Below are positions 9,178 to 28,336 of a stretch of 64,000 nucleotides of DNA, in pieces. The notes below the pieces were generated by a model. That model saw only the letters and a program-made list of their open reading frames with translations, made no database searches and had not been told where the DNA came from. The position numbers were made by a program, and so were the translations under genes. The DNA is taken from the NCBI GenBank assembly GCA_012103505.1, contig WLWP01000001.1, forward strand, positions 1,054,001 to 1,118,000, written 5' to 3'. This DNA is from Pseudomonadales bacterium. GTDB taxonomy: Bacteria; Pseudomonadota; Gammaproteobacteria; Pseudomonadales; Azotimanducaceae. Every line of letters starts with the position of its first letter. Within the stretch, counting starts at the first letter, position 1.

Positions 9178-9184
9178 TGCTGCG

Positions 9185-10048: not shown

Positions 10049-11496
10049 TAGCGAGCGCCTTCGCCAACCAAGACGACTTCAACGGTTTGTATCAAAATGA
10101 TGAAATCAAGGAGTAGACTATGATTTTTCAGATAGTATAGGTCGTATTGCAATTTTTCCTTAGCGTCGTCTATGGAGGCACCATACGGATAACAAAGCTG
10201 CGCCCATCCCGTAATGCCAGGTTTAACTTTATGGCGCTGATCATAGAAAGGTACTGTCTCCCGAATCTTATCCACAAACATTGGTCTCTCTGGGCGTGGC
10301 CCAACGAAGCTCATATCACCGACTAGAACGTTAAAGAGCTGAGGTAGCTCGTCGATACGGGTTTTGCGGATGAAGGCGCCGACTGTTGTCACCCTTGGGT
10401 CGTTCGCACTCGCCCAAATTGCGCCACCTTCCTCAGCATCGACCGTCATACTTCGAAATTTCATCACCCAAAAACGCTTGCCATCCAAGCCAATCCGTTC
10501 CTGTCGGTACAGAATGGGGGCTTTAAAAAAACTGCCAATCCCAATACTAAATGCTGCGATGAGCATAATAGGCCATGCGAGCAAAAGGAGGGCGAGTGCC
10601 GCGATCTTGTCAAATGCGGATTTGATGAATAATCTAACTTGATTAGCGACAAAACCATCAGAGAAAATCATCCAACTCGGGTGTAAAAGATCAACATCCA
10701 CCTTTCCCGCCTCGCGTTCGACAAAGGCCTGTACTTCACAAATCTCGATTCCATCTGTACGACAGTCAAGCAGTTCGTCGATAGGTAACCCGGGGGCATT
10801 GCCATCCCGGCGTCGCTCATCGACCGCAATGACGATTTCGTCAATCTTTTGCGTGACACAAAATTTTTGGAGACTGAGCTCCGTGGTTAAAACGTTAGCA
10901 CCGTGTTCGCTGACTAGGTCCTCCATGCCTTGTTGGCGGAGGAATCCGACGAGTACGAACGCTCTACGATCAGATTTACGCCGCATCCGAGTGGCGACCT
11001 TGATAGACCTATGACCCGTGCCAAGGATCAGAACTCTGCTTTTAAGGGTATCTTCATCAATTAAATGGTTGGTTATCCATCTAGAAACGGCGACCAGTAC
11101 GAAGGCTTCTGTGGCTGAGAAGAGTAGTACACCTCTGCCCATATCGAGTGAAGGCGCAAAGAATGCGAGCATGGCAAATCCCATGGTCCCGAGCAGGAAT
11201 ATGCTGACAGCGGTCCGCAACATCATTCCAGGGTAGCCCTCCCTGAGGCGCGACTCGTACACACCCATTGCGGCCATTGCAATAATCTGTACCAAAGCAA
11301 ACAAAGTCGCTGTCGGCCAGTATTCTGACCAAATTGGCCACTCCCCATGCCTGGAAGCGTGACCGGTGAATACTGCCGCAAAAATTAGCGTGAATTCAAG
11401 CGCTGACGCAATCAGGAATGGAGTGTGTATATAGTGTCTTAGGACACGAATATGTGGCACGAAAGATCCTTTTCTAGTACCCGAGCGATCCTGCAT
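10048..11496 (-). CDS. Polyprenyl-phosphate sugar-phosphate transferase (TIGR03013-like)
   Basis: This priming enzyme loads the first sugar-1-phosphate onto undecaprenyl phosphate to start each exopolysaccharide repeat. The 482-residue protein has several N-terminal membrane helices, a central Rossmann-like part ('RVLILGTGHRS'), one further helix near residues 290-315, and the bacterial sugar transferase domain. In that domain 'LYRQERIGLDGKRFWVMKFR' and 'IDELPQLFNVLVGDMSFVGP' are unmistakable. It fits the subfamily tied to XrtA systems. It is the first gene of the minus-strand operon; a 178-nt divergent region separates it from a glycosyltransferase. Confidence 0.93.
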   Translation of the reverse strand: MQDRSGTRKGSFVPHIRVLRHYIHTPFLIASALEFTLIFAAVFTGHASRHGEWPIWSEYWPTATLFALVQIIAMAAMGVYESRLREGYPGMMLRTAVSIFLLGTMGFAMLAFFAPSLDMGRGVLLFSATEAFVLVAVSRWITNHLIDEDTLKSRVLILGTGHRSIKVATRMRRKSDRRAFVLVGFLRQQGMEDLVSEHGANVLTTELSLQKFCVTQKIDEIVIAVDERRRDGNAPGLPIDELLDCRTDGIEICEVQAFVEREAGKVDVDLLHPSWMIFSDGFVANQVRLFIKSAFDKIAALALLLLAWPIMLIAAFSIGIGSFFKAPILYRQERIGLDGKRFWVMKFRSMTVDAEEGGAIWASANDPRVTTVGAFIRKTRIDELPQLFNVLVGDMSFVGPRPERPMFVDKIRETVPFYDQRHKVKPGITGWAQLCYPYGASIDDAKEKLQYDLYYLKNHSLLLDFIILIQTVEVVLVGEGAR

Positions 11497-11674
11497 TCTA
11501 ACTGAATGTTGCGATCCGTATTCTTCATACCATCGCTAGTGTGACCGTCGTCAACTACGCTACGTTAACTCGATCGAAATGAACCGAGTAATTATTTATC
11601 AGTGATTTGTAAGCACGCACATTTTTCGCACACCAAGCGCGTTAGAATTACCGCAACACTGCGTAGGACAGCAC
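11497..11674. promoter_or_regulatory. Divergent intergenic region of the exopolysaccharide locus
   Basis: These 178 nt lie between the leftward priming transferase operon and the rightward glycosyltransferase operon, so promoters for both must be here or inside genes. I saw no convincing sigma54 -24/-12 element, although such elements are known in other PEP-CTERM loci. TGTGA-N6-TCAAC at 11540-11555 is one base from a Crp half-site pair but is too weak to call. No coding sequence is visible. Confidence 0.5.
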
Positions 11675-12811
11675 GTGCTCACCACAATTGGCATTGCAAC
11701 ATTGACGTTATCGGGATTCTGCCTGATATGGGGCTATTTCGGTTACCCGCTTTTTTTGTGGGTTTCAAATCACCTCACCGGCAAAACAAACGAATTGAAC
11801 GAGGGGTTGAAGCAAGAACATAAGGTTTCAATCATTATCACTGCTTATAATGAATCAGCCCGGATATCAGAAAAGATCAGCAACACAATCGCCCTCGATT
11901 ATCCACCTGATTTGCTTGAGATTATTGTTGCTTCAGACGGTAGTGACGACGGAACCGATGAAATAGTTTCGGGCTTCCAGGAAGTCCGCTTGGTAGTAGT
12001 GCCTGGTCGAGTGGGAAAGGAAGCAACTCAGGATGCTGCCGTCAAAACCAGTGTTGGTGAGATAACCGTGTTCACTGATGTCGCCACCATTTTGGAAAAA
12101 GACGCCCTCAGACGAATCTCTGCACAGTTTACAGTTCTGGAAGTTGGTGCGCTTTCTAGCGAGGATCGATTTATCGTCGCTGATGGCAAAGTCAGTGGAG
12201 AGGGGGTATACGTTCGTTACGAAATGGCTTTACGCAAGCTAGAGGGTACGTTCAATACTTTAGTTGGTTTATCCGGCTCCTTTTTTGCCTGTCGTCGACA
12301 GGTTTGTCACGACTGGAATAATAGCATTCCATCCGATTTTGGAACTGCCCTCAGGTGTGCCAAGCAAGGATTACGAGCGATTCCGGCCCCGGGTTTGTAT
12401 GGTTACTACAAGGATGTATCGGATCCTAAGAAGGAATACAACAGAAAGGTCCGAACTATACTTAGGGGGATCAACGGGTTACGTAGTGAGCCAAGAGCAC
12501 TCAATCCAATGGAGAATGGCTGGTTTGCACTTCAGCTATGGAGTCACAAAGTCTTAAGGTGGTCGGGACCACTGTTGTTAGCAGGCGCATTAATAGGTTC
12601 GCTTTTACTTGCACTGGATTCCACCTTCGGCCGAGTAATCCTCGCAATCCAATTGGCTTTTTACTCAATTGCGATGTTTCCCTCTCAGTTCGTTCCTGGT
12701 TATTTACGTCTCCCGAAGTATTTCGTAATGACAAATTTGGCCATTGGACACGCTCTAATCTTATCGTTTCGAGGTGTCAACAAAGTCGCCTGGCAACCAT
12801 CACAGAGATGA
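11675..12811 (+). CDS. Membrane glycosyltransferase family 2
   Basis: This is a processive-type or membrane-anchored GT2 enzyme. It has an N-terminal membrane helix (about residues 3-28), a GT-A domain starting 'VSIIITAYNESARISEKISN' with 'IIVASDGSDDGTDEIV', a DxA-like acceptor region 'TVFTDVATIL', and at least two C-terminal membrane helices. It begins with GTG at 11675 and ends in an ATGA overlap with the next gene. It probably adds sugars to the lipid-linked repeat at the cytoplasmic face. About 378 residues; donor and acceptor are unknown. Confidence 0.88.
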   Translation: MLTTIGIATLTLSGFCLIWGYFGYPLFLWVSNHLTGKTNELNEGLKQEHKVSIIITAYNESARISEKISNTIALDYPPDLLEIIVASDGSDDGTDEIVSGFQEVRLVVVPGRVGKEATQDAAVKTSVGEITVFTDVATILEKDALRRISAQFTVLEVGALSSEDRFIVADGKVSGEGVYVRYEMALRKLEGTFNTLVGLSGSFFACRRQVCHDWNNSIPSDFGTALRCAKQGLRAIPAPGLYGYYKDVSDPKKEYNRKVRTILRGINGLRSEPRALNPMENGWFALQLWSHKVLRWSGPLLLAGALIGSLLLALDSTFGRVILAIQLAFYSIAMFPSQFVPGYLRLPKYFVMTNLAIGHALILSFRGVNKVAWQPSQR

Positions 12812-13875
12812 GAATGTTACCAAGTAGTGAGATTCAGATATACGAAGGAATTGATGATGTACTTTTTGAGAGGTGGCTTCAGCTGTACGAGCGCTCAAGT
12901 GAAAAGACGTTCTTTCAGCATCCTTCATGGACCAAAGTTTGGCTATCTTCGAAATCTAGGGAGAATGTTAGGGTGTGTTGTCTCTTCGTCGATGATCGCT
13001 TGGAGATTTTGACACCACTTAGAATAGAGAGCGCATCACGCTGTGTGATCAGCGGAAATGAACATACTGATTACAATATGATTCTGGTGGGCGAAGGTTC
13101 AGAGGGCCATTTGCAAACGTTTCTCGCGTGGATTGGTAAACAATTTGGAACGATTGTAGTCTCAGAGATCCCCAAAGCATCAATTCAAGCTAGCTCTCTA
13201 GCCAATCTAAGGACAGTTTTTCGTGATGAGGTTACCCATTGTCCGAGAATAGATTTATTGGATTTTAACCATGTCCAAGACTTGCTTTCCAAAAAAAGCA
13301 CCAACAGAAAAACCAAAATGCTCTACAACGCAGGAGAGGTGCGTGTCGAACATACCCAGGAACTAGAAAAAATTGGAGGTCGATTAAGTGAATTCATCGA
13401 CCTCCATATCGAAAGATGGAAAGCAACTGCTTCTCCAAGTATGTTCCGAGATGACTCCTCAGTTCGCCTCTACCAAGGGTTGATCGAGAACTGCGTACCG
13501 CTGGTCTGGTCAGGTTTGTATCTTGACGACGAACTTGTAGCTGGCCACATTGGAATAGTCGACCGAAAATCGCTGCTCTGGTACAAACCGGCTTACTCAA
13601 CCAGTCATTCGAAACTATCGCCAGGCGAAATATTGTTGCGAGAAGTGATTCGATACGCAATAGAAAACAACTATCACAGTTTGGATTTCACACGAGGCGA
13701 CGAACCCTACAAGTACCGATACGCGAACTTGACGATGGCGAATGAGAATCTGGTTATTTGTCGACGGAGGATTCACAGTATAGGGCTGCTAGCACATTCT
13801 GAATTATTGCGACAAGCTCGACGAGTACGAAGCAAAGTTCAAATTCTCGTCGGACGTAGGACGAGTTTGGAATGA
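12808..13875 (+). CDS. GNAT/FemAB-like acyltransferase
   Basis: The 355-residue soluble protein belongs to the GNAT superfamily branch often called Acetyltransf_6 (BioF2-like). Supporting segments are 'SEKTFFQHPSWTKVWL' near the start, 'AGHIGIVDRKSLLWYKPAYS' and the late 'SLDFTRGDEPYKYRYAN', all common to these cell-envelope acyl or aminoacyl transferases. ATG 12808 overlaps the preceding stop as ATGA; longer versions would only read through the upstream gene in another frame. It likely modifies a sugar or lipid intermediate of the exopolysaccharide. It is the second such protein in the locus, after the FemAB-like gene. Confidence 0.75.
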   Translation: MRMLPSSEIQIYEGIDDVLFERWLQLYERSSEKTFFQHPSWTKVWLSSKSRENVRVCCLFVDDRLEILTPLRIESASRCVISGNEHTDYNMILVGEGSEGHLQTFLAWIGKQFGTIVVSEIPKASIQASSLANLRTVFRDEVTHCPRIDLLDFNHVQDLLSKKSTNRKTKMLYNAGEVRVEHTQELEKIGGRLSEFIDLHIERWKATASPSMFRDDSSVRLYQGLIENCVPLVWSGLYLDDELVAGHIGIVDRKSLLWYKPAYSTSHSKLSPGEILLREVIRYAIENNYHSLDFTRGDEPYKYRYANLTMANENLVICRRRIHSIGLLAHSELLRQARRVRSKVQILVGRRTSLE

Positions 13876-13941
13876 CATGGTCGCGATTTCTCATAGTCCA
13901 TTTGATTATTTGTCAAGGCATCAGAGCAGGGGGTGTTGGCG

Positions 13942-16900
13942 ATGAGCGCTAACGATGTCGCAATAATTGGTATGCAAGTTCGAGTTCCGGGAGCTCGGGA
14001 TTTAGGTTCGTTCTGGGACAATATAAAAAATGGAGTTGAGAGCACTGAAGAAATATCTGACACGGAATTAGAGCGTAACGGTGTCCCTCGCCATCTAATA
14101 GACAATCCAAACTACGTAAAAAGTGGAGCGTTTCTCGCAGGCATCGATCGTTTTGACGCCGGTTTTTTTGGTCTCACGCCGCAAGAAGCATCGGTAATGG
14201 ACCCTCAGCACCGAGTCTTTCTCGAAGCTGCCTATCACGCCCTCGAAAATAGCGGTATAGACCCCTATTCATACTCGGGTAGCGTTGGCGTGTTTGCCGG
14301 TAGTGGCTACAACGCCTATTTTCCAAATCACGTACTTCAAAATGAAGAGCTAGTGTCGGAAATGGGCTTCTTTTTGCTGCGTCACACAGGGAACGATAAA
14401 GACTTTTTAGCAACTCGCGTTTCTTATTGTCTCAACCTCCGCGGCCCAAGTGTGAATGTTCAAACCGCGTGTTCAACCTCCCTGGTTGCTGTACACCAAG
14501 CTTGTCAATCTGTGCTTGATGGAGAGTGTGATGTGGCTCTCGCTGGCGCAATTACCTTGGAGCTTCCACAGCGGGTCGGCTACCTGTACACGCCTAACGA
14601 AATTCTGTCGGATGATGGGCACTGTAGGCCATTTGATGACAGCTCGACGGGAACAATTTTTGGCAGTGGTGTTGGGGTCGTGGTCTTAAAAGAAGTTGAA
14701 GATGCGCAGCGCGATGGAGACAAAATTTGGGGAGTGATTAAGGGTTCAGCGGTGAACAATGATGGTTCCGTTAAAGCGGGGTACCTAGCTCCGAGTGTTG
14801 ATGGTCAAGCCGCTGTAATCCGAGAAGCCATAGAAGTCTCTGGGTTGGCCCCATCCCAAATTGGCTTAGTTGAAGCGCATGGCACTGGCACTCGACTTGG
14901 TGATCCAGTTGAGCTTGCAGCGTTAAATCTCGCTTACAAAGATTCTGATCTACCTTCAAATTCTATTGCTCTGGGGTCAGTGAAGGGCAACATTGGCCAT
15001 TTAGATACGGCGGCTGGTGTTGTAGGGCTGATCAAACTAGTTTTGGCAATTGAAAATAGCACTTTGCCGCGAAGTATAAATTACTCAAAACCGAACAGTG
15101 ATCTCCGAATTGAAGAAACGCCCTTTTACGTTAACAGCCAGACGTTGCGGTGGACCACTGAGTTCAAAGTTGGCGCTGTCAGTTCCCTCGGAGTAGGAGG
15201 CACCAATGCTCATGTCATTGTTTCTGAACACCGTCAGAAAACCACTAGCATGTCATGGGAAGGACCGTTTCCTATTGTTTTGAGTGCGGCTTCGCAGGAG
15301 TCCTTGGATGCAACGATCGATAGAATTGTTGACGAATCGAAAGTCCAAGATGGAGAACTTGGTGGTCTCTCTCAAACCTTGCTCAGAAGAAGAGTGCATT
15401 GGCCAAAAAATGTCATAACGTCGATAGATAAAGCTGACAAACTCGAAAGCAAATTGGACTCAGCAATATTTCCAGAAACTTTAAGAGACGTAAACCAACT
15501 AGATCGACCAAAGGTTGTGTTTGGTTTTTCTGGTCAAGGTTCTCAATTCGCAGGCATGAGCAGAGGTTTGTATGAGACTTATTCTGTATATCGGTCTAGT
15601 TTTGATGATTGCTGTGACGCGGCAAAACCCTACCTCGATTTTGACCTAAAGCAAATGGTGTTTGAAGGACAAAGCCACGACAAAGACATTTCAGATATCT
15701 CAGTTTCTCAGGTTGTGTTGTTTGCCGTTGAATATTCGACAGCAGCCGTGTGGAACAGCTTAGGAATAACTAGTGATTTTGTGATTGGCCACAGTAGTGG
15801 CCAGATAGGTGCCGCAACACACGCTGGTTTGTTTGACCTAAGCGGCGGCATCAAGTTAATCGCCGCTCGAGGTCGCCTAATGCGACAAACGGAACTTGGT
15901 GGAATGCTTTCGGTTGCTCTTTCAGTAGCCGAAGTTGAGAGATTGCCGCTAGCGAATCTAGAGGTAGCGGCAATCAACGCGGACAATGCAGTAGTACTTA
16001 CTGGGGAAGCAAATGAGATCGATACCTTAGCCAGCTTTCTAGAAAACGAAGAGATCCCATTTAAAGAAATTCGTACCTCTCACGCAGGACATAGTCGATT
16101 GCTCGACCCGATCTTGAGTCATTTTGGTGACGTCTTTGAAGAGATAGAGACCCGACCAAATAGCATTCCGATCATCAGTAATGTGTCTGGGCAATTGTTA
16201 AGTGAAGAGGAAATGAATTCGCGTGAATATTGGATGCGTCATCTGCGGTCCCCGGTTAACTTTCATGATTCAGTACAAACATTAGCAAGTGAGGGTGATT
16301 TTATATTCATAGAGGTAGGGCCTGGTTCTGGACTCTGCCAATTGGCGCAGTTGACCACAGGGAATTCTCGGGTGGTTTTCCTCCAGTCTGCTCGTGGACC
16401 GACGCAAGAGGTGGAAGACCCTGATGTGCTCGCGTCTTCCTTGGCAGCTGCAGTTTTCGCAGGGGCAAAATGGGATTCGGGTGCACTTGGTCCAGTACTG
16501 AACTTACCGACATACCCGTTCCAACCTGAAAGGCATTGGATAGAGCGAGTTGACAGCAAAGACGTAATACAAGAAATACATCTTGCGAAATTGGGATGGA
16601 AGGACTCCGAGCAGTTAAATAGTCTGCCAGACTCTATAAATGGTGCTCGACAGAAAAACTTATTGATTGCCGGTTATGAGATAGAAGGCTTATCTAAGGA
16701 CCGATGGGATCACATAAACCTACCTGGCTTGAAATCCGTTGCAGACTTCAGTCTCCGCGCAAAGGTTTCAGAGCTAGAACTGGCGTTGGCTGACCATGGT
16801 GGAATTGATCATTTGCTATACGCACCAAGTAACCATCAGGCTCCGATGGCTAGCTTCTACGAATCCCTGAGCGTTGCTCAAGCAATTGCGGGAGCCGGAA

Positions 16901-17820
16901 TTACTTGCTCCGTGACCACGCTCACGGGGGTAGGGCAATCGATAACTGTTGGCCCAATGTTAGCGCTGGGACCGGAACTGGCGATTCCGAGTCGCGTAGT
17001 AGAAGTTGAGCAAGTGAATCCACAAGCTGTAAATGAAGCGCTCACTTGTGGTGATCCGGTTTCGAGATTGAGCGGGGCGATTACTCAAAACCGAGACTAC
17101 GTTAGTGTTGGGCTGGTTCATGATTCATTGAAGGACTTGGGCACTATTGTGATTACCGGTGGATCTTCCGGGATTGGGTTAGTCACGGCTGAGTATCTAT
17201 CAGATTACTGCTCGCATATCGCTATCATAGGTAGGCAACACTTACCGGACAAAGAAGAATGGCCTGGCTTGATCGAAGGCAAAGTGGATTCACCAGAGAT
17301 CGCAAAACTCTCTAGATTGGTTAGGCTCAATCGAAAAACATCATTGAGCTACCATGCGGTAGCGGTAGAAGATGCCGAATCGGTAGATGCGCGCTTTAGA
17401 GAAATTTCTTCAAAATACGGCGAAATAAGCGGGTTGATTCATGCGGCAGGGGTGATTGATGATGGTCCGCTCTTGAACAAGACCGTAGCGGGTGTAGATA
17501 GTGTGTTATCTAGTAAAGTTGCGGGAACGAAGAATCTAATCAACTGCCTGCCTCGAAGTGCTTTTTTGATTGGATATTCATCGTTAAGTGCTTTAATTGG
17601 TGTCCCAGGCCAAGCAGATTACATATCTGCTAACTCATATCTAAATGCTGCCATCGCACGGCGTGCTTCAGAGGCAAGTGGGCGTTCGTCATCAATTTGC
17701 TGGGGTCCATGGAAAGAGGCTGGCATTGCTCATCGCCTCGCCAAGGACGAAGCCACTATCGATTCTTGGCATCCACTCATTACTCGGGCAATGATATATC
17801 CCGGTGCATCGAGAACTTGA
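13942..17820 (+). pseudogene. Type I polyketide synthase KS-AT-KR, truncated before the carrier domain
   Basis: This is a modular type I polyketide synthase. The ketosynthase (about residues 1-430) has the catalytic Cys near 177 in 'VQTACSTSLVAVHQ' and the two His motifs 'EAHGTGTRLGDP' and 'KGNIGHLDTAAG'. The acyltransferase has 'GFSGQGSQFAGMS' and 'GHSSGQIGAA', with Gln where most have Glu. The ketoreductase has the NADPH motif 'GGSSGIG' (about 1072), the Ser in 'GYSSLSAL' and the Tyr in 'GQADYISANSYL'. After 'SICWGPWKEAGIAHRL' the similarity stops, no acyl-carrier domain follows, and the frame ends in a piece of deacetylase. ATG 13942 follows AGGGGG; GTG 13933 is an alternative. Without a carrier domain it can hardly work alone. 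Confidence 0.85.
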
Positions 17821-18629
17821 AGAGCCAGGCATAATTGTTGACCCCAACCTATTTCATAACCACATGCGATGGTTACGAGAACTAGGTACGATCGTAAAAC
17901 TCTCTGACTGGCTGACGGATCCAGAGTCTTACAAGAAGGAGAGATGTTTTGCGGTCACTTGTGATGATGGCTGGTGGGACAACTACGAGTATGCCTTTCC
18001 TGTCGTCTGTGAAGAAAGAGTTCCAATATCAATTTTTTTAGTTACTAGTTTCATCGATACAGCACGCAGGTTCTGGCCTGGTGAGGTATACCGATATCTG
18101 GATGGTCGAGAAACCAAACTAACGGAAGGAGTGAAATCTATTGTTGACGCACATATTCAGACTGCGCGAAGGTTGCCGTCCGAGGATAATTACTCAGCTA
18201 AAATCAGAATTTAGGGATGATGAGATTTTCGATCTGGACAATACCAGTGGCGCTGGGGTGGGTGATTGTTTGAACTCTGAGCAATTACAAGATATGGCGG
18301 AAAGCGGATTTGTCGACTTTGGTTCGCACACTTGTTCCCACATTCGTCTTAATAGCAATATATCAAATGAGACAGGGGAATCAGAAGTATTGCAGAGTAA
18401 GAGTCAGCTTATTGGGTTAGAGAGCTACAACGAAATCTTTTGTTATCCCAACGGTGACATAGACGAACGTTTCGATACCATCGTTAAGGAAAATTTCAGA
18501 GCGGCACTAACAACTCGAGTGGGTTTGAATTGCAGCGATTCTGATCTTTATAGACTAAGTAGAATAAATGTTCATGATGATAACTCGTTTGACCGGTTTG
18601 CTTTTTATTACTTGTTAACAAACACATAG
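17804..18629 (+). pseudogene. Broken polysaccharide deacetylase (NodB fold)
   Basis: Two frames together encode most of a NodB deacetylase. Frame one (17804-18214) has 'HMRWLRELGTIVKLSDWLTD' and the metal motif 'FAVTCDDGWWDNYEYAFPVV'. Frame two, entered near 18190-18205 by dropping one base (a run AAAA lies there), has 'GFVDFGSHTCSHIRL' (motif 2, H-x3-H) and 'IFCYPNGDIDERF'. The N-terminal strand before 'HRELEEPG' is not in frame: 'TRAMIY' just upstream looks like its continuation but lies in the polyketide synthase frame. At least two breaks are therefore needed. It looks like a decaying or misassembled gene, not a working one. Confidence 0.75.
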
Positions 18630-18778
18630 CACGGACAGCCTCCTGGCTTATGCAGAGGGACTCTATGAACTATCCAGGCTAGGATGTCTCGGAACACGCC
18701 GAACTCAACCCAGACAGCATGGCGCCAGCTCTGTAGGCAGCACCCAAGCCTTGATTACATAATTTAACATAATATATA

Positions 18779-19684
18779 TTACGAGAGATTTAACAGTCTT
18801 CGCGCCCAGCGACGAATATTTTCGATTGTTAGGGATCGTAAGAATAATGGGACGGCCACCAGAAACATACTCCGGCGGGCATACGCACGCGCTAAAGCAA
18901 ATGTTTTTTCGGATAGTATTTCGTCAAAGAGAGTTTTTGGGATGTTGTCTTGATATAGGGCTCGAACCGCGCGAATTGTCGCCAAGTGCACTCGATCTTT
19001 TGTCAAAAAGTCAGCCCCCTTATTATTGTTATGAATGCGGACTACTGCCAATTTTTTATCGAGGTAGCAGACGGAGTAGCGGGTAAAGAGTTTGAGAAAT
19101 AGATTAAAGTCCTCTGACTTAAATACGTTTGGATCCCATCTATAATTCTGGTGTACTTCGCGTTTGATCGTACAGACGGTTGGATAAAATGCGTATCCCC
19201 TTAAAATAAGTTCTAATGCCTTGTCTGTAGAAAATTCCACGCAGTCGCTGTTCAATGGTTGCCCTAGCTCGTATACGAACGGAAAAAAGAAGCTATTGCC
19301 AAAATCCGAGGGGGTTTCGCTAACGGCGAGTTCGTGCTTAACGAAATCACAAAAGACAAATTCGGGGTCTTTCGCGGTTTTTATGCATCGATCAATAGAT
19401 GATAGATAATCCTGGTCCCAGAGATCATCACTGTCCAAATAACAGACATACTCACCTATGGCATGCGACACGCCAGTGTTTCTGGCTATGGAGACACCTG
19501 AATTCTCTTGGTGGATCCATTTCGCCTTTGGATACACAGATATGAGTTCAGTGGTCTCGTCCGTAGAGCCATCATCAATCACTATCAATTCGTAGTCGTC
19601 AAACGTTTGATTAAGTACTGACTTAATTGCATCATCGAGCATCGCGGCCCTGTTAAATGTCGGAACAATTACGGAAAAGCGCAT
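18779..19684 (-). CDS. Glycosyltransferase family 2
   Basis: This is an intact 301-residue GT2 enzyme. It starts 'MRFSVIVPTFNRAAMLDDAI' and has the nucleotide-sugar segment 'ELIVIDDGSTDETTEL', then 'ENSGVSIARNTGVSHAIGEY' and the DxD motif in 'CYLDSDDLWD'. No membrane helix is evident. It lies 5 nt downstream of the GT8-like gene on the same strand. It sits inside the block bounded by broken genes. By eye the DNA is more AT-rich than the flanks; a 149-nt AT-rich spacer follows its end toward the deacetylase fragment. Confidence 0.92.
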   Translation of the reverse strand: MRFSVIVPTFNRAAMLDDAIKSVLNQTFDDYELIVIDDGSTDETTELISVYPKAKWIHQENSGVSIARNTGVSHAIGEYVCYLDSDDLWDQDYLSSIDRCIKTAKDPEFVFCDFVKHELAVSETPSDFGNSFFFPFVYELGQPLNSDCVEFSTDKALELILRGYAFYPTVCTIKREVHQNYRWDPNVFKSEDFNLFLKLFTRYSVCYLDKKLAVVRIHNNNKGADFLTKDRVHLATIRAVRALYQDNIPKTLFDEILSEKTFALARAYARRSMFLVAVPLFLRSLTIENIRRWARRLLNLS

Positions 19685-19689
19685 AGTTG

Positions 19690-20490
19690 TTACCCGTTAT
19701 CCCTACGACTTTTTAGGTAGATCAAAAAGTCTCTGTCGGCACGATCTAACAACCATCTTAAGTGCGTAAACTTTCTCGATAAAAGTAGATGGATGGGGCT
19801 GTTGATGATGCCAAGATCTTTTCGCATCTGGGTTAGCCTTGACCCATATCTATGTCCGCTTGGACCGGAATAGTGAATGAAGAAACTGTTAAATCGAATA
19901 TGTGTTTCTCTAATTACTCTGGTGTGGTTGTAGCGAAATCCTAAGTCGGTCATTGGCATTGCTAGTTCATTGAGCCGGTAGTTAAGGTAGGGTTGATCGG
20001 ACATCACATGTTCGGACTTGCCCGTTGACGTCACCCAAAGGTTGAATTGGCTACTTTTAGGATTAAATAGTTCTTTCTGATTTTGCGAAACAACCATGAC
20101 TCCGGAGTTAAAGTAGGGGTTTACCCAATTTATACCCCCTAATTTTGCCTGGGTCGCTTCTTTGTGCGCTGAAACCATAGAATAAGCCTCTTCGTTTGCG
20201 GCACCGAAAGTATCGGGGGGTACCAAGTCAAACAGGGATGGGGCATCGGGCAAGACCAGAATGTCCGTATCCAAAAAAATAACTCGACGGTACCTTTCCA
20301 ACAGATCGTACATCTGAAACTTCTCATACGTCGGAAACTCAGCTATGTTTTTTGACTGGTCAATAATGATGAATTCAGCTCCAATCCTTTTTGCGTACTT
20401 CCTCATTAACGGGTGGGTAACACGACCCATTTCCGAGAATTCCTGCCCGATTGCGAGAGTAACGATTGCTAGCGTTTTGGTGGTTGCCAT
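19690..20490 (-). CDS. Glycosyltransferase with GT8-like fold
   Basis: The 266-residue protein has the features of retaining family 8 or glycogenin-like enzymes: an N-terminal 'TLAIVTLAIGQEFSEM', a central DxD motif in 'RVIFLDTDILVLPDAP', then 'NPYFNSGVMVV' and a late His in 'FFIHYSGPSGHRYG'. It would transfer a sugar from a nucleotide donor during exopolysaccharide assembly. Its ATG follows the TAA of the upstream membrane-protein fragment with no gap. The gene is intact. Family-level call is good, donor unknown. Confidence 0.8.
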   Translation of the reverse strand: MATTKTLAIVTLAIGQEFSEMGRVTHPLMRKYAKRIGAEFIIIDQSKNIAEFPTYEKFQMYDLLERYRRVIFLDTDILVLPDAPSLFDLVPPDTFGAANEEAYSMVSAHKEATQAKLGGINWVNPYFNSGVMVVSQNQKELFNPKSSQFNLWVTSTGKSEHVMSDQPYLNYRLNELAMPMTDLGFRYNHTRVIRETHIRFNSFFIHYSGPSGHRYGSRLTQMRKDLGIINSPIHLLLSRKFTHLRWLLDRADRDFLIYLKSRRDNG

Positions 20491-20660
20491 TTATTTAAAC
20501 CTTGTTTCAAAAATACGATATGCGGGATAACAGGTGGACAAAACTAGGAGCAGGCTGAATGTAACCCTCAGGGCAAGATCTGAATAAGGGTTACCAATAA
20601 TCGGCACGTAGTTTTGCGCGATAATTGATAGAGCTGCGGTTGCGCCAACTAAGGCTTCGA
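20491..20660 (-). pseudogene. C-terminal fragment of a membrane protein
   Basis: About 50 residues of hydrophobic sequence end in 'TCYPAYRIFETRFK' and read 'IIAQNYVPIIGNPYSDLALR' before that, which look like the last one or two helices of a polytopic membrane protein (flippase, polymerase or acyltransferase are possible). Upstream of about 20660 the frame runs into sequence antisense to the ATP-grasp fragment, so the N-terminal bulk is missing. It is directly upstream of the GT8-like gene. Its break coincides with that of the ATP-grasp gene on the other strand. Confidence 0.55.
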
Positions 20661-21146
20661 GAGCGCCCTCCTGATGGCGGGGTGAGCGTGCTAAGTGAGA
20701 GCATACCAGTTGACCCAATTCTCCAGGGGTACTCAGACCAGTTGCTTCAGAGTGCTAAGTGGACTGGTGTGGCGATGATTGAGTTTAGAGTCACGCCAGA
20801 GGGTAAGCCATTTCTCATGGAAATAAACCCTAGGTTTTGGGGTTCGTTGCAGCTCAGTGTTGATTCAGGAGCTGATTTCCCAAGTATGCTCGTGGATTTG
20901 TACGTCGGAAAACAAATCTCCCCGAAATCCTATCGAGTCGGTCAGCGTTTACGATGGTACTTGGGTGACCTAGACAGGACTATCATGGTCTTGAAAGACC
21001 CAAATCTGACTAAATGTCAAAAGATTGAGAGTGTTTGGGGATTCCTATTCACAAGACTAGCGTCTCGTAATGAGATCTTTAGACTAAACGATGCACGGCC
21101 TGCAGTAAGGGAGTTGAGAGGGTACATCCGTGATATTTTCACCTAG
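20652..21146 (+). pseudogene. C-terminal fragment of an ATP-grasp ligase
   Basis: The frame begins abruptly at 'RERPPDGGVSVLSESIPVDP', a segment normally found in the middle of ATP-grasp proteins of the carbamoyl-phosphate-synthase-like type, and goes on to the metal-binding 'VAMIEFRVTPEGKPFLMEIN' and 'PRFWGSLQLS'. About 165 residues remain; the N-terminal ATP-binding half of a ~400-residue protein is absent. A nominal ATG at 20625 exists but lies in the sequence shared with the opposite-strand membrane fragment. The 3' end is normal and overlaps the GT4 gene by 17 nt. Similar ATP-grasp genes occur in XrtA-type loci. Confidence 0.72.
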
Positions 21147-22311
21147 ACAGTTGACCAAAAACCGCCACAAGTCGGTTCTCGCGCTAAGTAACTATGGTCC
21201 TGACACAGAATACGCGTGGAGATTTATACGCTTGTTTTGGGAAGAAATCGGACGGCAGTGTGAGGAGAGTGGTGAAAGGTTTTTGTTGGGATTTCCAACT
21301 TTAAGCAATGGATCCCGGCCTCTTGAGGACCGTGAAGTAGAGATAGTCCAGGCGGCATTTCCCACTTGGTCACTTACATCGTGGCTTGCGTGGTATCGCC
21401 TCGTTACCAGAAACAACATCGGCAAAGTATACTTGACCGATAGACCCTATTTCTCATTACTTTATCCTTGTTTGCGTCTATTGGGGGTCGATTCAATAGT
21501 AGTTCACGACCACACACCCGGGGACCGGGAGCCGGTAGAAGGTGTTAAGGGCTGGACTAAAAGTTGGGTGAATAGGTCACCATGGTTCACTGCGGACTTT
21601 GTACTCAACGTATCGCACCTAATGCGAGAGCGCAGTCTTTTTAGTGGGCGAATACCAGAATCCAAATGCATAACGATAAAGAATGGGATTCAACCTCGTA
21701 CGTTTACGTCCGAAAACCAATTGAGTTTGCGGTCCAAATATGGGTTGAACCCTAACTCTTTTATTTTCATTTCAACGGGAAGAGCTAGTTCATACAAACG
21801 ATGGGATTTCGTAATATACGCAGTACATAAGTTGATTCATCTTCCAAATACGATTGACTTTAAGTTAGTTTTTGTTGGGGATGGACCAGATTTGGGAGCT
21901 TTTGAGAGCTTAGCGTCTGAACTGGGAGTGTCTTCACGGGTTAAGTTTCTTGGTTTTCAGGAAGATTCACGAGCTCTGCTCACGTTAGCGGACTGTGCCG
22001 TTCATGCATCTAAGGGTGAAGGGCTTAGCCTCTCCGTTCTTGAGTACATGGATGCTGGTCTCCCTGTTCTGGTAAGTGATGTGCCTTCTGTCTGTCAAAC
22101 AATAGTCGATCAATCCACTGGTTTTACTTTTAATTCGAATTCTTTCGAGGATTTAGCCCTGGCGATGGCTAAGGTTCTGGATGATCGCGATACCGCAAAG
22201 AGTGTTGGTTTAGCTGGCCAACTAGAGGTAAGAAGAAACTATGCGCTCAATGACACTATGGCTGCTTTTAGTGCTTTTTGGGCGGAACTTGCAGCCCATA
22301 GGAATATCTGA
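21130..22311 (+). CDS. Glycosyltransferase family 4
   Basis: This 393-residue GT-B enzyme has the retaining GT4 hallmark region: 'STGRASSYKRWDFVIYAV', 'LVFVGDGPDLGAFESLA', then 'VHASKGEGLSLSVLEYMDAG' with the E-x7-E pair and 'LPVLVSDVPSV'. It starts with GTG at 21130, overlapping the ATP-grasp end. It probably acts in the cytoplasm, building the repeat unit. It ends 2 nt before the convergent aminotransferase. Intact. Confidence 0.92.
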   Translation: MIFSPRQLTKNRHKSVLALSNYGPDTEYAWRFIRLFWEEIGRQCEESGERFLLGFPTLSNGSRPLEDREVEIVQAAFPTWSLTSWLAWYRLVTRNNIGKVYLTDRPYFSLLYPCLRLLGVDSIVVHDHTPGDREPVEGVKGWTKSWVNRSPWFTADFVLNVSHLMRERSLFSGRIPESKCITIKNGIQPRTFTSENQLSLRSKYGLNPNSFIFISTGRASSYKRWDFVIYAVHKLIHLPNTIDFKLVFVGDGPDLGAFESLASELGVSSRVKFLGFQEDSRALLTLADCAVHASKGEGLSLSVLEYMDAGLPVLVSDVPSVCQTIVDQSTGFTFNSNSFEDLALAMAKVLDDRDTAKSVGLAGQLEVRRNYALNDTMAAFSAFWAELAAHRNI

Positions 22312-22313
22312 TG

Positions 22314-23435
22314 TCAATACAGAATACTAGGGACGGTGATTCTATACTGGGAAACAATATTCAGAATATCTTCCAAGTCGCTCAATGATGCGTAGTTATG
22401 TAGCGGTAGAGTAAGTAGGCGAACTGCGTAACTGTCAGCATTTGAGTTGGCGGGTAACTGAGAAATTTTGAGCGGGACGCCATGTATATTTCGAAGTGAT
22501 GCGTTGTACATCTTTGATACACCTCCAATCCGCAGACATTTGGTATATGCTATCTCGCGATCTGATTCTGAAGAGAACAGGATTGGAAATCTAAGAAGTA
22601 TTGTCTTTTCGGGGGGCCGCGCGTTTGTAGTTGATCGCGTATTTAGTTTGTCTGCAAGACGCAACCGAACGAAATCCTGAGCAAGCGTATCTGTTTCTAA
22701 GGATGTTTCGCACATGTTGGAAGCCAGTGAACTTCTGTACGAGTCTAATCGACATGGCGGCGTCGCGCCTTTGTAACTTGTACGGCCCAACGGTGAACCC
22801 GGGAGGTAATACACTTTGGCTAAGGCACCGCTTTTGAGCGCGCGGTTGAACAATAGCGCCCTGAATTCGAAGAAATGACTCGATTGCCGTTTGCAAGGGA
22901 TTGGGTATATTTGGCTACATTCCTCTGAAAAGATAAGAGCTCCGCCTCCTAACAAATTTAACTGTTTCCCTCTGCCAAAACTGAGTATCTTGAAGTCAGC
23001 ACTACCGAGATCTAGATTAGGTTTTTCTTGGGCAGCATCTAGAATAATCAGCGCCCCCACTGAAGAGGCTATTGATCTAAGCGCTGTAAGGTCCTGTCTC
23101 GCACCAAGAAAACTGACGCTGATGATTGCAAGTGTTTTTGAGCTAACCTCTTCAGCCGCTTCTGAAACTCCAAGGTGGGCAAAATCCTGACACGTATCGA
23201 CGACAATAGCTTTGAGATTGACGTATTCACATGCCGCTAAGACTGTCGGGCACACGTAACCCGGAATCACGACTTCATTTTTTTGGGGTGGCGCCAACAT
23301 TTTTGCAGTCGATAACGCTAAAATCAATGCAGACGTTCCAGAATCCAGAAATATAGCGCGGTCTTGTGGTAGCGAAGTTACTTTAGGCGCCTCAAGCTTA
23401 ACTGTAACTGGGTTGCCTGAAGGGAGAAGTTTCAT
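22314..23435 (-). CDS. DegT/DnrJ/EryC1-type aminotransferase-like protein
   Basis: This is a fold-type I PLP protein of the DegT/DnrJ/EryC1/StrS group, whose members usually aminate keto-sugars. Visible landmarks are 'IFLDSGTSALILAL', 'EVVIPGYVCPTVLAA', the Asp in 'LIILDAAQEKP' and the PLP Lys in 'SFGRGKQLNLLGGGALIF'. A C-terminal 'LLTLPLHNYASLSDLEDI' is also present. The 373-residue length fits. Substrate cannot be told. It is the last gene of the minus-strand operon starting with the Wza-like gene; 28 nt separate it from the chain-length gene. Confidence 0.85.
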   Translation of the reverse strand: MKLLPSGNPVTVKLEAPKVTSLPQDRAIFLDSGTSALILALSTAKMLAPPQKNEVVIPGYVCPTVLAACEYVNLKAIVVDTCQDFAHLGVSEAAEEVSSKTLAIISVSFLGARQDLTALRSIASSVGALIILDAAQEKPNLDLGSADFKILSFGRGKQLNLLGGGALIFSEECSQIYPIPCKRQSSHFFEFRALLFNRALKSGALAKVYYLPGSPLGRTSYKGATPPCRLDSYRSSLASNMCETSLETDTLAQDFVRLRLADKLNTRSTTNARPPEKTILLRFPILFSSESDREIAYTKCLRIGGVSKMYNASLRNIHGVPLKISQLPANSNADSYAVRLLTLPLHNYASLSDLEDILNIVSQYRITVPSILY

Positions 23436-23463
23436 GAATTAGAGATCGATGTGTCGCTTACTC

Positions 23464-25002
23464 TCATGGATGGGTCGATAGAACTAGGACGACGTAACAT
23501 CCGTACAGAAACAGGAGTAAGAATGTAGCTGTGATGTAGATTGCGCTGCTTTTCCTTGTGACAACTCCGGCATCAATCGGAGAAATAGTACCTAAAATTG
23601 GCAATTTCAATGCTAGTGACATTTCGATACGATCGGTGAACACGGGGCGCAGCAAGCTCGAAGTGTAACCAAGGCCTATTCCCCCTAGAATTCCTACTAG
23701 TAAAACCAATGAAGCTAACTCGAAACGTTGCGGACCAATCGCGCGAGTGGGAAGTTTTGGCGGCTCAATTACTCTAAAAACAACGTCTCCTTCTGATTTA
23801 TCGCGCTCTCGCGAAAGTCGAGTTGCTTCCAGCCGTGTTAATAGTTCGTCATATTGCTCCTTGGTGATATCGTAGTCTCGTGTTAGCTTTACGAAATCCG
23901 CCTCAATTCTTGGGATGACATCAATTGCAGTCTCGAGTTCCTCGAGTCTATTTTTATCGCTCGCGATCCGTGCTGTGTCAGCTGCAACCTGAGCATCGAT
24001 GATCCCTAAAGATATCCGTAATTCTTCAAGAACCCGATTGCCTGAGACCGCTGCGGCGTTAACCAATTCTTCGTCAGACCGCGGTACATCGAACCCGGCC
24101 TTAATGTCTTTTATCGTTCTCTTGATTGCCATAACTTCTGGATGCACGTCGGTGTACTTGAGTTTTAAGTCTACTAACCGTGTTTCCAAGTCCAGAAGCC
24201 GTAACTTGGAATCTGTAGGGCCTAACTCGGATTGAAAATTGTCTGAGCGAGACAGTTCGTGGATCTGCTTCAATAGCGCAATGCGATGGTTTTCGGCTTG
24301 ATCCAAGTCGAGCATTGCGGATCTAATCTCAGTTTGGAGGTTTCTGAGTTCGCTGAAGTAGTCTCCACCGCTATCGGGTAGTAACCCCATGTTTTTTCGT
24401 TTGAAAGCAGTTAACGACGCCTCAGCAGCTTCCAGTTTTCGACGATAGTCTAGTAAAGTTTCTTCTAAAAATTTTTCGGTCGACTCCGCGTCTTGAAGAC
24501 TCGACCCCATCATAGTCTCCAAAAAAATATCAAGGAGGGCAACAACTACCCCGTAGGCTAACGCGGGATTTTTGTGTTCGAAGCCAATGGTTATCATGTT
24601 TTGGGTGCTGCGACGATTTGTCGAGGTGCTTTCTCCCAGTACTTCAACATTACGAATCTGTGATATTGCGTTTGCGAGACTGGAGTCGCTAGTCATTACA
24701 TCCAAATCAAGTTCACGAGCAACTCGTTCCAAATTTGGCTCGCTGAGTAGTAGAGATCGGGCGAGGTCCAGAAACTCACCCTCAGAATCTTCAGCTTCAA
24801 CAGCGAGCCCTTTGAGCGAGCGACCAAGCATTGTGCTGGTATCCACATAGACTTTTGTTTCCGCTCTAAACACGTCTGGAAGAACATATAAAATGGACCA
24901 GCCGCAGATGGACAGAACGAATGCAGATGTTGCTGCAACACGTCGATAAAGCCACGCTTTTTTTGCGATTCTTAAGATTTGTACGAGAATTTCGTCCATC
25001 AT
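23464..25002 (-). CDS. Exopolysaccharide chain-length determinant (Wzz/GNVR type, XrtA-associated)
   Basis: This polysaccharide co-polymerase sets polymer length in the inner membrane. The 512-residue protein has an N-terminal helix (about 22-42), the Wzz domain ('FRAETKVYVDTSTMLGRSLK'), long coiled-coil stretches over residues ~170-390, and a GNVR-like 'YDITKEQYDELLTRLEATRL'. A Pro-rich 'IEPPKLPTRAIGP' precedes a second helix, and an additional C-terminal helix is present. No tyrosine kinase domain is fused and none is next door. Translation starts at one of two adjacent ATGs (25002 or 24999) with no Shine-Dalgarno; instead five copies of a 7-nt repeat fill the region upstream. Confidence 0.9.
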   Translation of the reverse strand: MMDEILVQILRIAKKAWLYRRVAATSAFVLSICGWSILYVLPDVFRAETKVYVDTSTMLGRSLKGLAVEAEDSEGEFLDLARSLLLSEPNLERVARELDLDVMTSDSSLANAISQIRNVEVLGESTSTNRRSTQNMITIGFEHKNPALAYGVVVALLDIFLETMMGSSLQDAESTEKFLEETLLDYRRKLEAAEASLTAFKRKNMGLLPDSGGDYFSELRNLQTEIRSAMLDLDQAENHRIALLKQIHELSRSDNFQSELGPTDSKLRLLDLETRLVDLKLKYTDVHPEVMAIKRTIKDIKAGFDVPRSDEELVNAAAVSGNRVLEELRISLGIIDAQVAADTARIASDKNRLEELETAIDVIPRIEADFVKLTRDYDITKEQYDELLTRLEATRLSRERDKSEGDVVFRVIEPPKLPTRAIGPQRFELASLVLLVGILGGIGLGYTSSLLRPVFTDRIEMSLALKLPILGTISPIDAGVVTRKSSAIYITATFLLLFLYGCYVVLVLSTHP

Positions 25003-25006
25003 CTAT

Positions 25007-25041
25007 TCTGCTATCTGCTATCTGCTATCTGCTATCTGCTA
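25007..25041. repeat. Perfect heptanucleotide repeat (TCTGCTA)5 before the chain-length gene
   Basis: Five perfect tandem copies of TCTGCTA (TAGCAGA on the gene strand) end 4 nt upstream of the ATG of the chain-length gene and take up the place of its ribosome site. The 90-nt spacer to the exosortase stop contains a GGTAGGAAAG on the far side of the repeat. Heptamer arrays change length by slippage, so copy number could alter expression of the length regulator. Confidence 0.9.
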
Positions 25042-25092
25042 CGACTCGATATTATTGCAAACTTTCCTACCGGGTGTGTATGTACAATGTAG

Positions 25093-26445
25093 CTATACTT
25101 TTTCTGTGTCACAGTATTTCTGTTCGCGTGTGAACAGAGTGATAAGTACCTCACACACCGCCTCCGATTTTATCTGGCCATATCCTTCTTTCTTAAACAC
25201 AAGCCGATGAGCATCCGTCCGACCATCTTGCATAAGTGATACTAGTTGGTAGTACTTTGCATCTTGATATCCGACGACTAAATTTCGACCATAAAGAGAG
25301 TACGTTTTTTCGTACTCCAATTTTTTTTCGTAAAACCCGTCAATCTCACGGTTTGCGCGTTGGACCGGAAATGCCGTAATTTCTAAAGTTGTATCGCCTT
25401 TTGATAGCAGTATGAGGTTTTTTGTCTTGGTTGTGTGTTTTACGTTTCGAAAACCAATGGAGTGCAACTTTTCTTCTGCGGAGCTGAGGAAGGTCTCACT
25501 TTCCTGAATGCCATTGTGCTCCAATTCCGTGACAACGATTGGATTGGCCAATAGCAAAACCAATGTCACGATCAGCCTTTTAACTGAGACTGGCTGTCTG
25601 GACCGAATTTGAAGTAACCGTTTGCTTTCACTTCCGAAATATTTCTCAAAAAAGTAAACCACTAGTCCAATACAAATAGCGGTCAAAGCCCAGCCGTACC
25701 AGTAGTGATCTACTGCAATTAGATAGTGCTTCATTCCCCAAAGCTGTGCGACGAATATCAGTCCAAGTATCCGTATCCAGTTGATTAGGATCGCTCCAAT
25801 CGCGCAGCAAGTGAAGATAGCGAGTGTTTTTCGAACTGGGTAGTGAGCTGTGTACGCGTACATTAGGGAAAACGACGACGCCGCAAGGAAAATGTTCAGG
25901 CCACTACAACCACTGGCAATCTCAAAAGTACCACTCAAAATTTCAATCTGGTGACCGGTAATAAATGCTGGAATGTTGGTGTGAGAAATGATAAATGTTG
26001 TCGCGATCGTTGTCATATCGCGCAGAGGTTCGTTAACAAAATCCCAAGCTGGGAGGGCTAACACTAGGAGACCGAATGGCACGACCAGAGCTTCTAGTTC
26101 CGCGGGTTTAGAGAATAAACAATATGTAGAGAGACCTAGCATAAACCACGCGACATGCTCAACGACGCCCGCACCAATGCAGACGGCAGCGATCCATGTT
26201 GCTCCTGCGCAGGTAGCTAGTATTTGCAACAAAGTCACGGTTGAAAATCGGTTGCCTACCGAACTTCTACTCACTTTTACGAAACAGTAGGCGGCAAAAG
26301 CAACATTTATTAGCCCATGGCTGAATGGTCCATAGCTATCCAGCCAATACCCAAGAAGACTCTGTAGAGTACGGTTATAAAATGTGAAGAGGACGAAAAG
26401 CAGTGTAAGAAGAGTGATGACACCATTGCTTCTCGACTTCAACAT
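25093..26445 (-). CDS. xrtA: Exosortase fused to an EpsI domain (XrtA-like)
   Basis: Exosortase is a polytopic inner-membrane transpeptidase-like enzyme that recognises PEP-CTERM tails. The N-terminal ~270 residues form about eight helices with the expected catalytic set: Cys180 in 'EIASGCSGLNIFLA', Arg225 in 'LINWIRILGLI' and His247 in 'AVDHYWYGWAL'. The C-terminal ~170 residues form an EpsI (DUF3485-like) periplasmic domain with 'LEITAFPVQRANREIDGFYE'. The fused architecture is known for some exosortases. No PEP-CTERM substrate is encoded in this window. The gene sits 1 nt after the beta-barrel gene and 90 nt before the chain-length gene. Subtype A is inferred from the neighbours. Confidence 0.88.
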   Translation of the reverse strand: MLKSRSNGVITLLTLLFVLFTFYNRTLQSLLGYWLDSYGPFSHGLINVAFAAYCFVKVSRSSVGNRFSTVTLLQILATCAGATWIAAVCIGAGVVEHVAWFMLGLSTYCLFSKPAELEALVVPFGLLVLALPAWDFVNEPLRDMTTIATTFIISHTNIPAFITGHQIEILSGTFEIASGCSGLNIFLAASSFSLMYAYTAHYPVRKTLAIFTCCAIGAILINWIRILGLIFVAQLWGMKHYLIAVDHYWYGWALTAICIGLVVYFFEKYFGSESKRLLQIRSRQPVSVKRLIVTLVLLLANPIVVTELEHNGIQESETFLSSAEEKLHSIGFRNVKHTTKTKNLILLSKGDTTLEITAFPVQRANREIDGFYEKKLEYEKTYSLYGRNLVVGYQDAKYYQLVSLMQDGRTDAHRLVFKKEGYGQIKSEAVCEVLITLFTREQKYCDTEKV

Positions 26446-26446
26446 G

Positions 26447-27728
26447 TCAAAATTTATCTACCAGCGCATAGCTAAATGCAATCTGACCGATTATTTCCTC
26501 ATACGATGTTCCGTTTGCGTTAGAACTGCGCTTCACATAATTTAAACCGAATCGAAGATGAGTGCGCCGAGAGCTTTCTACTCGTAGGTTTATGGTCGCG
26601 TTGGTTACTTCATCCTTTTGGTTCTGGTCAAGAAATTGCTCATCTGCATATTGGCCTCCGACATTTAGTATCGTATTTGCCGACACTTGTCTTGCGACGT
26701 TAAGAGAGAGCTTTTTGGATCGTCTGTCCCTGAGAATAGATTCGTAGTTTTCTTCACCAATTGAAATAGTAGCTGTAATTTGGTTGCGCCCGAATTGAGG
26801 AGAAACTGTGAAATTTGCGTCGGTTTGTACAAAAACTGTTGCGGTATCCGAATTATCGAGAGGGATAAATTCGATTTCGTCAAGGGTTCCTCGTTCCAAA
26901 AGGGAGGATCGATCACTAATGGCACGATCAATAGATATTGACCAAGGTAGGACGGTTCCAACCCCTCTTTCGAGCCTCAACCGTCCTGTTATGCCCGATA
27001 CGTTGTCGACGTGTCCGAATTCTTGGTCTGTCTGCGTATAGCCTAGCTCGATTTCTAATGTCGCATTTGCAAGTTGAGATTCGAAATACGTTCCAAGAGT
27101 ATTCTTGTCATAGTCATTGAAATTTAGGGTGTCGAACTCAGTCCTTGACATTTCCGTAAAAGCGCCCAAACGACGTGTCTCTTCGATCGGGATGTTATAG
27201 CCAATGCGAATGGAATTATTTTTGCTGTCGTTTTCAGTGTCGTCATAGGAATTTATTGCATGTGTGGCTTGTAGTGAGAAAGACTGATTCCCAAACGTTG
27301 TTTGATTATAGGCAACGCTACCTGAGAGTCGCTGGGTTTCTTGCCTATTGCTGGGTGTGTTTGGTCTGAAAGAGTTTATTGTCGACTCTGTTCTAAAGTG
27401 GTTGAGATCGAAGGTCAACTTTTGGCCTATAGCATTCCATCTGATGTCTGATTTACCAGTCACTGCGTTTTCGTTTTCGAACTCTTCTTCGTTGCAAAAA
27501 ATAGTCCGAATCTAGTTCTACTGCATCAGAGCTGTGTGCTAATCGGCCCGACAAAGCCGGTGTGTAGATCCACTGTCGCAAACCGTTTGATGATTGTTTA
27601 TTCGAATTAGAACTATGTTCAGCGCCCAGCTCAGTGCTAAGTGCATAATCCAGAGGATGAGCCAGGGGTGATAGTAGAATCATGACAATGCATATTGGAG
27701 GTTTAGAAAGGAGCGTTACTAACTTCAT
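26447..27728 (-). pseudogene. PEP-CTERM-associated outer-membrane beta-barrel, frameshifted at a T6 run
   Basis: The 5' frame (ATG 27728, overlapping the wza-like stop as TGATG) encodes a signal peptide and 'YALSTELGAEHSSNSN', then runs out at 27453. The 3' frame encodes 338 residues of alternating amphipathic strands with many Asn/Thr/Arg, ending in Phe, as in the TIGR03016-like outer-membrane proteins of XrtA loci. Dropping one T from the run of six T (gene strand, about nt 27497-27502) joins them through 'DSDYFCNEEEFENENAVTGK', which matches the expected acidic strand-loop pattern. It would be the outer-membrane partner of the export lipoprotein. Real mutation or read error cannot be told apart here. 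Confidence 0.78.
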
Positions 27729-28336
27729 CAAAATAACCTCTCAGGCACCGTGATTACATCACCTGGACGCAATCTCACGTTACTTCGTAAGTCCCTGCCG
27801 TTGAGTATGCGGTCCAATCTAATAACTATTGGTTCATGTCCCTGGCGAAAAACCCTAACCTTCGCCGAATTCGCGAACTCATTGACGCCTCCGGCTTCAA
27901 GGACTACATCCATTACAGTCATGCCATTTTTAAACTCCACCGATTGCGGGCTAACCACCGCACCAGTGATCCTAATCCGAGATAGGTAATCTGAGTTTGA
28001 AACGTTTGCGACGGTAACAGTTACAATTGGGTCGCGGATGAACGTCGAGAGAATTTTGGTTATGCGTGTAGCGACTTCTTCGGGTTCATTGCCACCTACT
28101 GGAATGTCACCTGCGATTGGAATGGTAATTTTGCCATCGGGTCTGACCATGACAATTGTACTGACATCTTCATGAGCGTAAACGTCGATACTCAAAGTGT
28201 CGCCAACACCGATCCGATATTCTTCAGCAAACACAAACTCCTGATTTGTTGGGTCATCGAGGACAACGACGCCCGAAGCACACGAGATTGCTGAAACCGC
28301 TACGGCAAATGGGAGTAGTCTCGAGACGACACTCAT
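27728..28336 (-). CDS. Polysaccharide export lipoprotein (Wza/EpsA-like)
   Basis: The 202-residue exported protein has a signal ending at a probable lipobox (AISC, Cys near 19), the polysaccharide export domain ('YRIGVGDTLSIDVYAHEDVS', 'VRPDGKITIPIAGDIPVGG') and SLBB-type repeats ('IRITGAVVSPQSVEFKNG', 'VRLRPGDVITVPERLF'). It is shorter than E. coli Wza, as is usual in PEP-CTERM loci, and would form the outer-membrane pore with the beta-barrel. A near-perfect AAGGAGG lies just before the ATG. It is the first gene of the minus-strand export operon; the 234-nt region upstream should hold its promoter. Confidence 0.92.
   Translation of the reverse strand: MSVVSRLLPFAVAVSAISCASGVVVLDDPTNQEFVFAEEYRIGVGDTLSIDVYAHEDVSTIVMVRPDGKITIPIAGDIPVGGNEPEEVATRITKILSTFIRDPIVTVTVANVSNSDYLSRIRITGAVVSPQSVEFKNGMTVMDVVLEAGGVNEFANSAKVRVFRQGHEPIVIRLDRILNGRDLRSNVRLRPGDVITVPERLF

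Follow-up and report, generated by a model that had tools for sequence, protein, structure and literature searches.

In the stretch of DNA analysed here (the window, 64,000 nucleotides, spanning bases 1054001-1118000 of a contig of 4.65 Mb; the genome has 5.82 Mb in 21 contigs), our reading on balance is that a hypervariable, XrtA-type exopolysaccharide (EPS) locus contains a partly decayed segment shaped by at least two separate non-homologous events. A first-pass annotation made from the sequence had described this segment as a block of about 2.9 kb between four broken genes, one unit set in native surroundings and explained by one exchange. Two tight joins do truncate genes in the EPS locus, with rare genes between them. 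However, the deacetylase inside the supposed block keeps company in other genomes with the ATP-grasp gene outside it, so that one imported unit in wholly native surroundings is not supported. The state of the locus looks like routine decay at a site that changes quickly. Its features are listed in Table 1.

Table 1. Features of the exopolysaccharide locus and of its truncated segment, in window coordinates
Feature	Position	Strand	Basis
Whole XrtA-type exopolysaccharide locus	7954..28336		TIGR03013, TIGR03007 and TIGR03027 above cut-off; exosortase-family protein; Pfam
GT2	11675..12811	+	Co-occurs with DegT aminotransferase, deacetylase and ATP-grasp in other genomes; Pfam
Type I polyketide synthase (PKS), KS-AT-KR, 3' part with ACP lost	13933..17790	+	Pfam domains; homologs extend further
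Left join	17780..17830		PKS similarity ends, deacetylase similarity starts
NodB-type polysaccharide deacetylase, about 40-50 N-terminal residues lost, C-terminus apparently complete	17805..18629	+	Pfam, homologs
Intergenic, possible left edge of minus-strand piece	18630..18778		Inference
GT2 glycosyltransferase, intact ORF	18779..19684	-	ORF, Pfam
GT8-family glycosyltransferase, intact ORF	19690..20490	-	Pfam
Membrane-protein gene tail, 53 residues, 5' part apparently missing	20491..20650	-	ORF structure, stop/start abutment
Right join	20630..20655		ATP-grasp similarity starts here
ATP-grasp protein, last ~165 of ~390 residues	20649..21146	+	Pfam, homologs
GT4 glycosyltransferase, intact ORF	21130..22311	+	ORF, Pfam

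The locus comprises genes for a FemAB-like protein, a DUF3473 deacetylase, the TIGR03013 glycosyltransferase, a GT2, a GNAT-type protein and the PKS, then the block, the ATP-grasp tail, the GT4, a DegT-type aminotransferase and the TIGR03007 chain-length determinant, as well as genes for an exosortase-family protein, a porin-like protein and the TIGR03027 export protein. In profile searches, the glycosyltransferase scored 550.5 bits (cut-off 393.35), the chain-length determinant 365.4 bits (cut-off 278.85) and the export protein 185.7 bits (cut-off 180), all three scores marking an XrtA locus. A related TIGR03013 gene occurs in 9 of 40 searched genomes of the genus, this one included (E <= 1e-60), and in seven of the other eight it adjoins the same type II secretion genes, the contig of the eighth being too short to judge. 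This indicates an EPS site that these genomes share and that varies in content.

At the left join, the PKS ORF (13933-17820) carries KS, AT and KR domains by Pfam and stops after the KR, and its match to the same-genus PKS of genome G008 ends at residue 1283 of 1295, at about 17.78 kb. All ten aligned PKS homologs from the order extend beyond the KR; nine carry an ACP-type motif further downstream, and the tenth (L057) is cut by the end of its contig. Longer counterparts, in keeping with the proposal of the first-pass annotation to search related genomes for an intact PKS-ACP, are present in G008 (2169 aa) and G025 (2186 aa), both with a GGHSL motif, the ACP-type motif being recognised in these two by pattern rather than by family search. 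Both resemble the window's PKS in type and are encoded some 20 kb (G008) and 14 kb (G025) away from the TIGR03013 gene, so that a PKS at this site is not odd. The tail of a same-genus PKS, searched in the genome under study, gave nothing at E <= 0.001, an empty answer that shows little for want of a control. About 17 kb from the truncated PKS, at 34441-35103 on the minus strand, lies a gene for a 4'-phosphopantetheinyl transferase, the kind of enzyme that would activate the carrier protein of a PKS.

Similarity to deacetylases starts at residues 2-12 of the frame that opens at 17795, which usually corresponds to about residue 50 of the homolog, and some 40-50 N-terminal residues are thus missing. 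Because PKS similarity ends at about 17.78 kb and deacetylase similarity starts at about 17.80-17.83 kb, the left join is tight, falling within 17.78-17.83 kb. The deacetylase is in addition split over two frames (17795-18211 and 18135-18626), with the change of frame at about 18.19-18.20 kb. We do not take this change as proof of real decay, since there is a second split gene, a nucleotide-sugar dehydrogenase-like gene (named by eye) that is divided into two ORFs about 28-29 kb before the window (L182:10889-12159) and may reflect either real decay or a sequencing indel.

At the right join, ATP-grasp similarity starts at 20649-20652, and full-length homologs carry about 225 residues before this point. 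The three plus-strand truncations that had been noted at first pass, namely the loss of the PKS 3' end at about 17.78 kb, of the deacetylase 5' end and of the ATP-grasp 5' part at about 20.65 kb, were all borne out by homologs, the ATP-grasp loss amounting to some 225 of 390 residues, and full-length ATP-grasp homologs were found in other genomes, where the earlier reader had suggested looking for them. Among relatives, the ATP-grasp protein was detected in 10 of 58 genomes at E <= 0.001, this one included, and same-genus genomes gave weak matches only (G010, G027 and G030). A scan of a species-genome collection returned at least 589 matching stretches, at least 574 of which encode a relative; the best 80 loci were kept, and 76 of them hold a readable ATP-grasp ORF. 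In one of the loci found, that of Candidatus Competibacter phosphatis (L106:5432-6599), the ATP-grasp gene is also split over two frames.

The missing parts were searched for in several places. The ATP-grasp N-terminus gave nothing in the genome under study at E <= 0.001, again an empty answer that shows little in a search run without a control. In a separate comparison with the N-terminus of L140 as query, 79 of the best 80 loci were recovered, L140 included. When 121 N- or C-terminal pieces were compared with the whole window, nothing fell below E = 0.016, and a search for lost pieces in the 40 kb before the window yielded one match (E 0.008 over 15 residues), which we take as chance.

Between the deacetylase and the ATP-grasp remnant lie three minus-strand genes. 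The GT2 has its best match outside this genome in G126 (46%), and among the best 80 ATP-grasp loci it found only partial, generic family matches of at most about 104 bits. The GT8 is rare: among 369 class genomes, matches at E <= 1e-25 came from this genome and from one other, at 37%, and one of the best 80 ATP-grasp loci has it at 34%; used as a query against named genomes, it found nothing. The stop codon of the membrane-protein tail abuts the GT8 ATG, which suggests that the tail belongs to a real upstream gene of an operon. That this fourth broken gene of the first-pass annotation has lost its 5' part is read from the structure of the ORF, with no homolog found (no Pfam or NCBIfam match, and nothing notable in a set of 123 hydrophobic proteins from related loci). 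The end of the tail may be that of an acyltransferase-3 protein.

The relation of the deacetylase to the ATP-grasp gene is central to how these joins are read. Full deacetylase homologs (302-374 aa, plus one read-through of 578 aa) occur in 43 of the 76 readable loci from the best 80, and in 34 of the 76 the deacetylase shares the strand of the ATP-grasp gene and is no more than 2 kb away from it: it follows directly in 19 loci, follows at a distance of 0.6-1.9 kb in 10, and directly precedes the ATP-grasp gene in five (L121, L129, L140, L141 and L146). According to their record titles, these five loci come from other phyla or classes, and transfer between lineages is therefore likely. In the remaining 9 of the 43, the deacetylase is located 4-9 kb after the ATP-grasp gene on the same strand (four loci), 2.6 and 8.1 kb before it (two) or on the other strand (three). 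These nine loci, the 33 of 76 in which no full deacetylase was found, and the likely transfer between lineages count against the reading with two or more events.

Trees were built from 42 of the 43 loci with both genes, L077 with its 578-aa read-through ORF being left out. In the ATP-grasp tree, the window groups with L098, L117, L121, L129, L140, L141 and L146 (UFBoot 95; FastTree 0.90), and in the deacetylase tree with the same seven loci plus L102, L104 and L111 (UFBoot 75; FastTree 0.82), a placement of moderate support. The agreement between the two genes is likewise moderate, which also weakens our reading: in the analysis with UFBoot, L102 drops out of the ATP-grasp group, and over all loci the window's Spearman correlation between deacetylase and ATP-grasp distances is 0.48, a value towards the bottom of the range, with 4 of the 42 other loci clearly below it. 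A further neighbour is the GT2 at 11675-12811, which exceeds 200 bits in 9 of the best 80 loci, 7 of these belonging to the window's group of 18 ATP-grasp loci (tree of all 76, support 0.89).

The shared neighbourhood and tree relatives make the deacetylase, the ATP-grasp gene and this GT2 look like one resident module, which conflicts with the idea that the block brought in a foreign deacetylase. As judged from these sequence comparisons, the deacetylase is probably a member of the resident EPS module rather than an import. In eight same-genus stretches, four of them only 6-20 kb long, neither the deacetylase nor the ATP-grasp nor the GT8 had a match that scored more than 45 bits. Our reading is also weakened by the PKS, which is absent from all of the best 80 ATP-grasp loci; neither the intact order of the window nor a PKS beside a deacetylase was found in those loci or in the eight same-genus stretches, four of which are shorter than 21 kb.

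We infer the order, number and kind of events as follows. The deacetylase and the ATP-grasp gene, as members of a resident module, may once have been neighbours with the deacetylase first, as in the five loci named above. One event, on the left, would have fused the PKS, deprived of its 3' part, to a deacetylase deprived of some 40-50 residues. Another, on the right, in the interval from the stop codon of the deacetylase (18629) to the remnant of the ATP-grasp gene (20649), would have set a minus-strand piece of at most about 2.0 kb (18.63-20.65 kb, with the GT2, the GT8 and the membrane-protein tail) against the ATP-grasp gene and removed its first ~225 codons. Joins of this type can arise as plain deletions or by illegitimate integration of foreign EPS DNA. 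The deacetylase would additionally have lost its frame. All three plus-strand proteins have presumably lost their function, the PKS for want of its ACP, the deacetylase of its N-terminus and frame, and the ATP-grasp protein of its N-terminal part.

The segment could have reached this state in other ways. First, a random fragment of another EPS locus could have been exchanged at once for 17.80-20.65 kb (about 2.85 kb) by two illegitimate joins, which we consider unlikely. Such an exchange has the economy of accounting for all four truncations by one event, it agrees with the absence of the lost pieces from the genome and window searches, a related EPS locus that served as donor and had the same module would bring a deacetylase of similar kind, and the support of the trees is moderate. 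The association of the deacetylase inside the block with the ATP-grasp gene outside it, both in other genomes and in the trees, argues against it. Composition is divided. The GC content of the block, 0.438, is the lowest of its size anywhere in the window (0 of 277 control windows as low), yet 1 of 60 windows within the EPS locus is as low, these control windows overlapping and hence not being independent, and GC is low across the whole locus. The k-mer comparison of inside and outside that had been proposed at first pass, made with tetranucleotides, does not mark the block: a deviation at least as large as that of its 2.84 kb is seen in 9 of 60 control windows from the locus and in 20 of 277 from the whole window; for 18.63-20.65 kb, the figures are 11 of 72 and 32 of 290. 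With 4-mers unexceptional and low GC common to the whole locus, we rejected composition as a marker of foreign origin.

Second, the joins could be absent from the cell and result from misassembly or a chimeric join, which we also judge improbable, although the first-pass annotation's caveat that a chimeric assembly would look the same still stands. The contamination estimate of 6.61% would fit such an error, and the frame change in the deacetylase and the split dehydrogenase-like gene may be errors left over from sequencing. Misjoins tend to occur at repeats. The 3.2-kb stretch across the segment is single-copy, its sole match in the genome being itself, and neither join showed a repeat of 14 or more bases within 7-29 kb; moreover, the contig of 4.65 Mb probably derives from long reads, and the error would have to consist of two misjoins at a distance of 2.9 kb. 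Distinctly unlikely is a fresh replacement of about 2.85 kb, made in a single step by two illegitimate joins and caught before clean-up. If true, it would represent an intermediate in the switching of polysaccharide type that proceeds, without flanking homology, via a locus with broken genes.

Finally, a mobile element could have carried the block in, since EPS loci often hold insertion sequences, but this is very improbable given the lack of repeats at the joins and of a second genomic copy, the lack of similar DNA in collections of 72,556 plasmid records and 50,697 phage records (E <= 1e-5) and the lack of a transposase family among the Pfam hits of 40 scanned window proteins, a subset of the window's ORFs. 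A simple inversion of the block was ruled out by reasoning from gene orientation.

The significance of the segment beyond this genome is little. It illustrates that what seems to be one block swap may fall apart when the surroundings of the same genes elsewhere are considered, the seemingly foreign piece here including a gene that is probably part of the locus, and the PKS, deacetylase and ATP-grasp genes described here should not be annotated as working enzymes.

The locus can be compared with several known systems. As in XrtA (exosortase A/PEP-CTERM) EPS loci, TIGR03013, TIGR03007 and TIGR03027 members above cut-off are accompanied by a DUF3473 deacetylase, a FemAB-like protein and an exosortase-family protein. 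According to one published account, the neighbours of PEP-CTERM/EpsH genes include deacetylases and glycosyltransferases (PMC1569441). The present locus differs in its exosortase, which reaches 135 bits with PF09721 (cut-off 25.7) and, with 139.5 bits to TIGR03109, remains below the XrtA cut-off of 208, and in the exosortase-associated ligase TIGR03097, for which a search of the genome at E <= 0.001 came back empty. This ligase need not be present in every XrtA locus. It also differs in that two genes lie about 26-28 kb before the window (L182:12330-14368), away from the main EPS locus, so that the EPS gene set looks split; one encodes a tyrosine kinase of XrtA type, whose 212 bits to TIGR03018 fall short of the cut-off, and the other is ATPase-like (recognised by eye).

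Homology-facilitated or double illegitimate recombination of foreign DNA in bacteria likewise produces non-homologous joins inside genes. A parallel for a truncated ATP-grasp copy in an EPS-type locus comes from Marinimicrobium alkaliphilum SW121 (L075, L034), although its origin differs: there, the fragment is part of a direct repeat of 966 bases and 95.7% identity (L075:226-1190 and 8670-9634) that copies the 5' part of the ATP-grasp gene and leaves a truncated copy, with the intact gene about 8 kb away.
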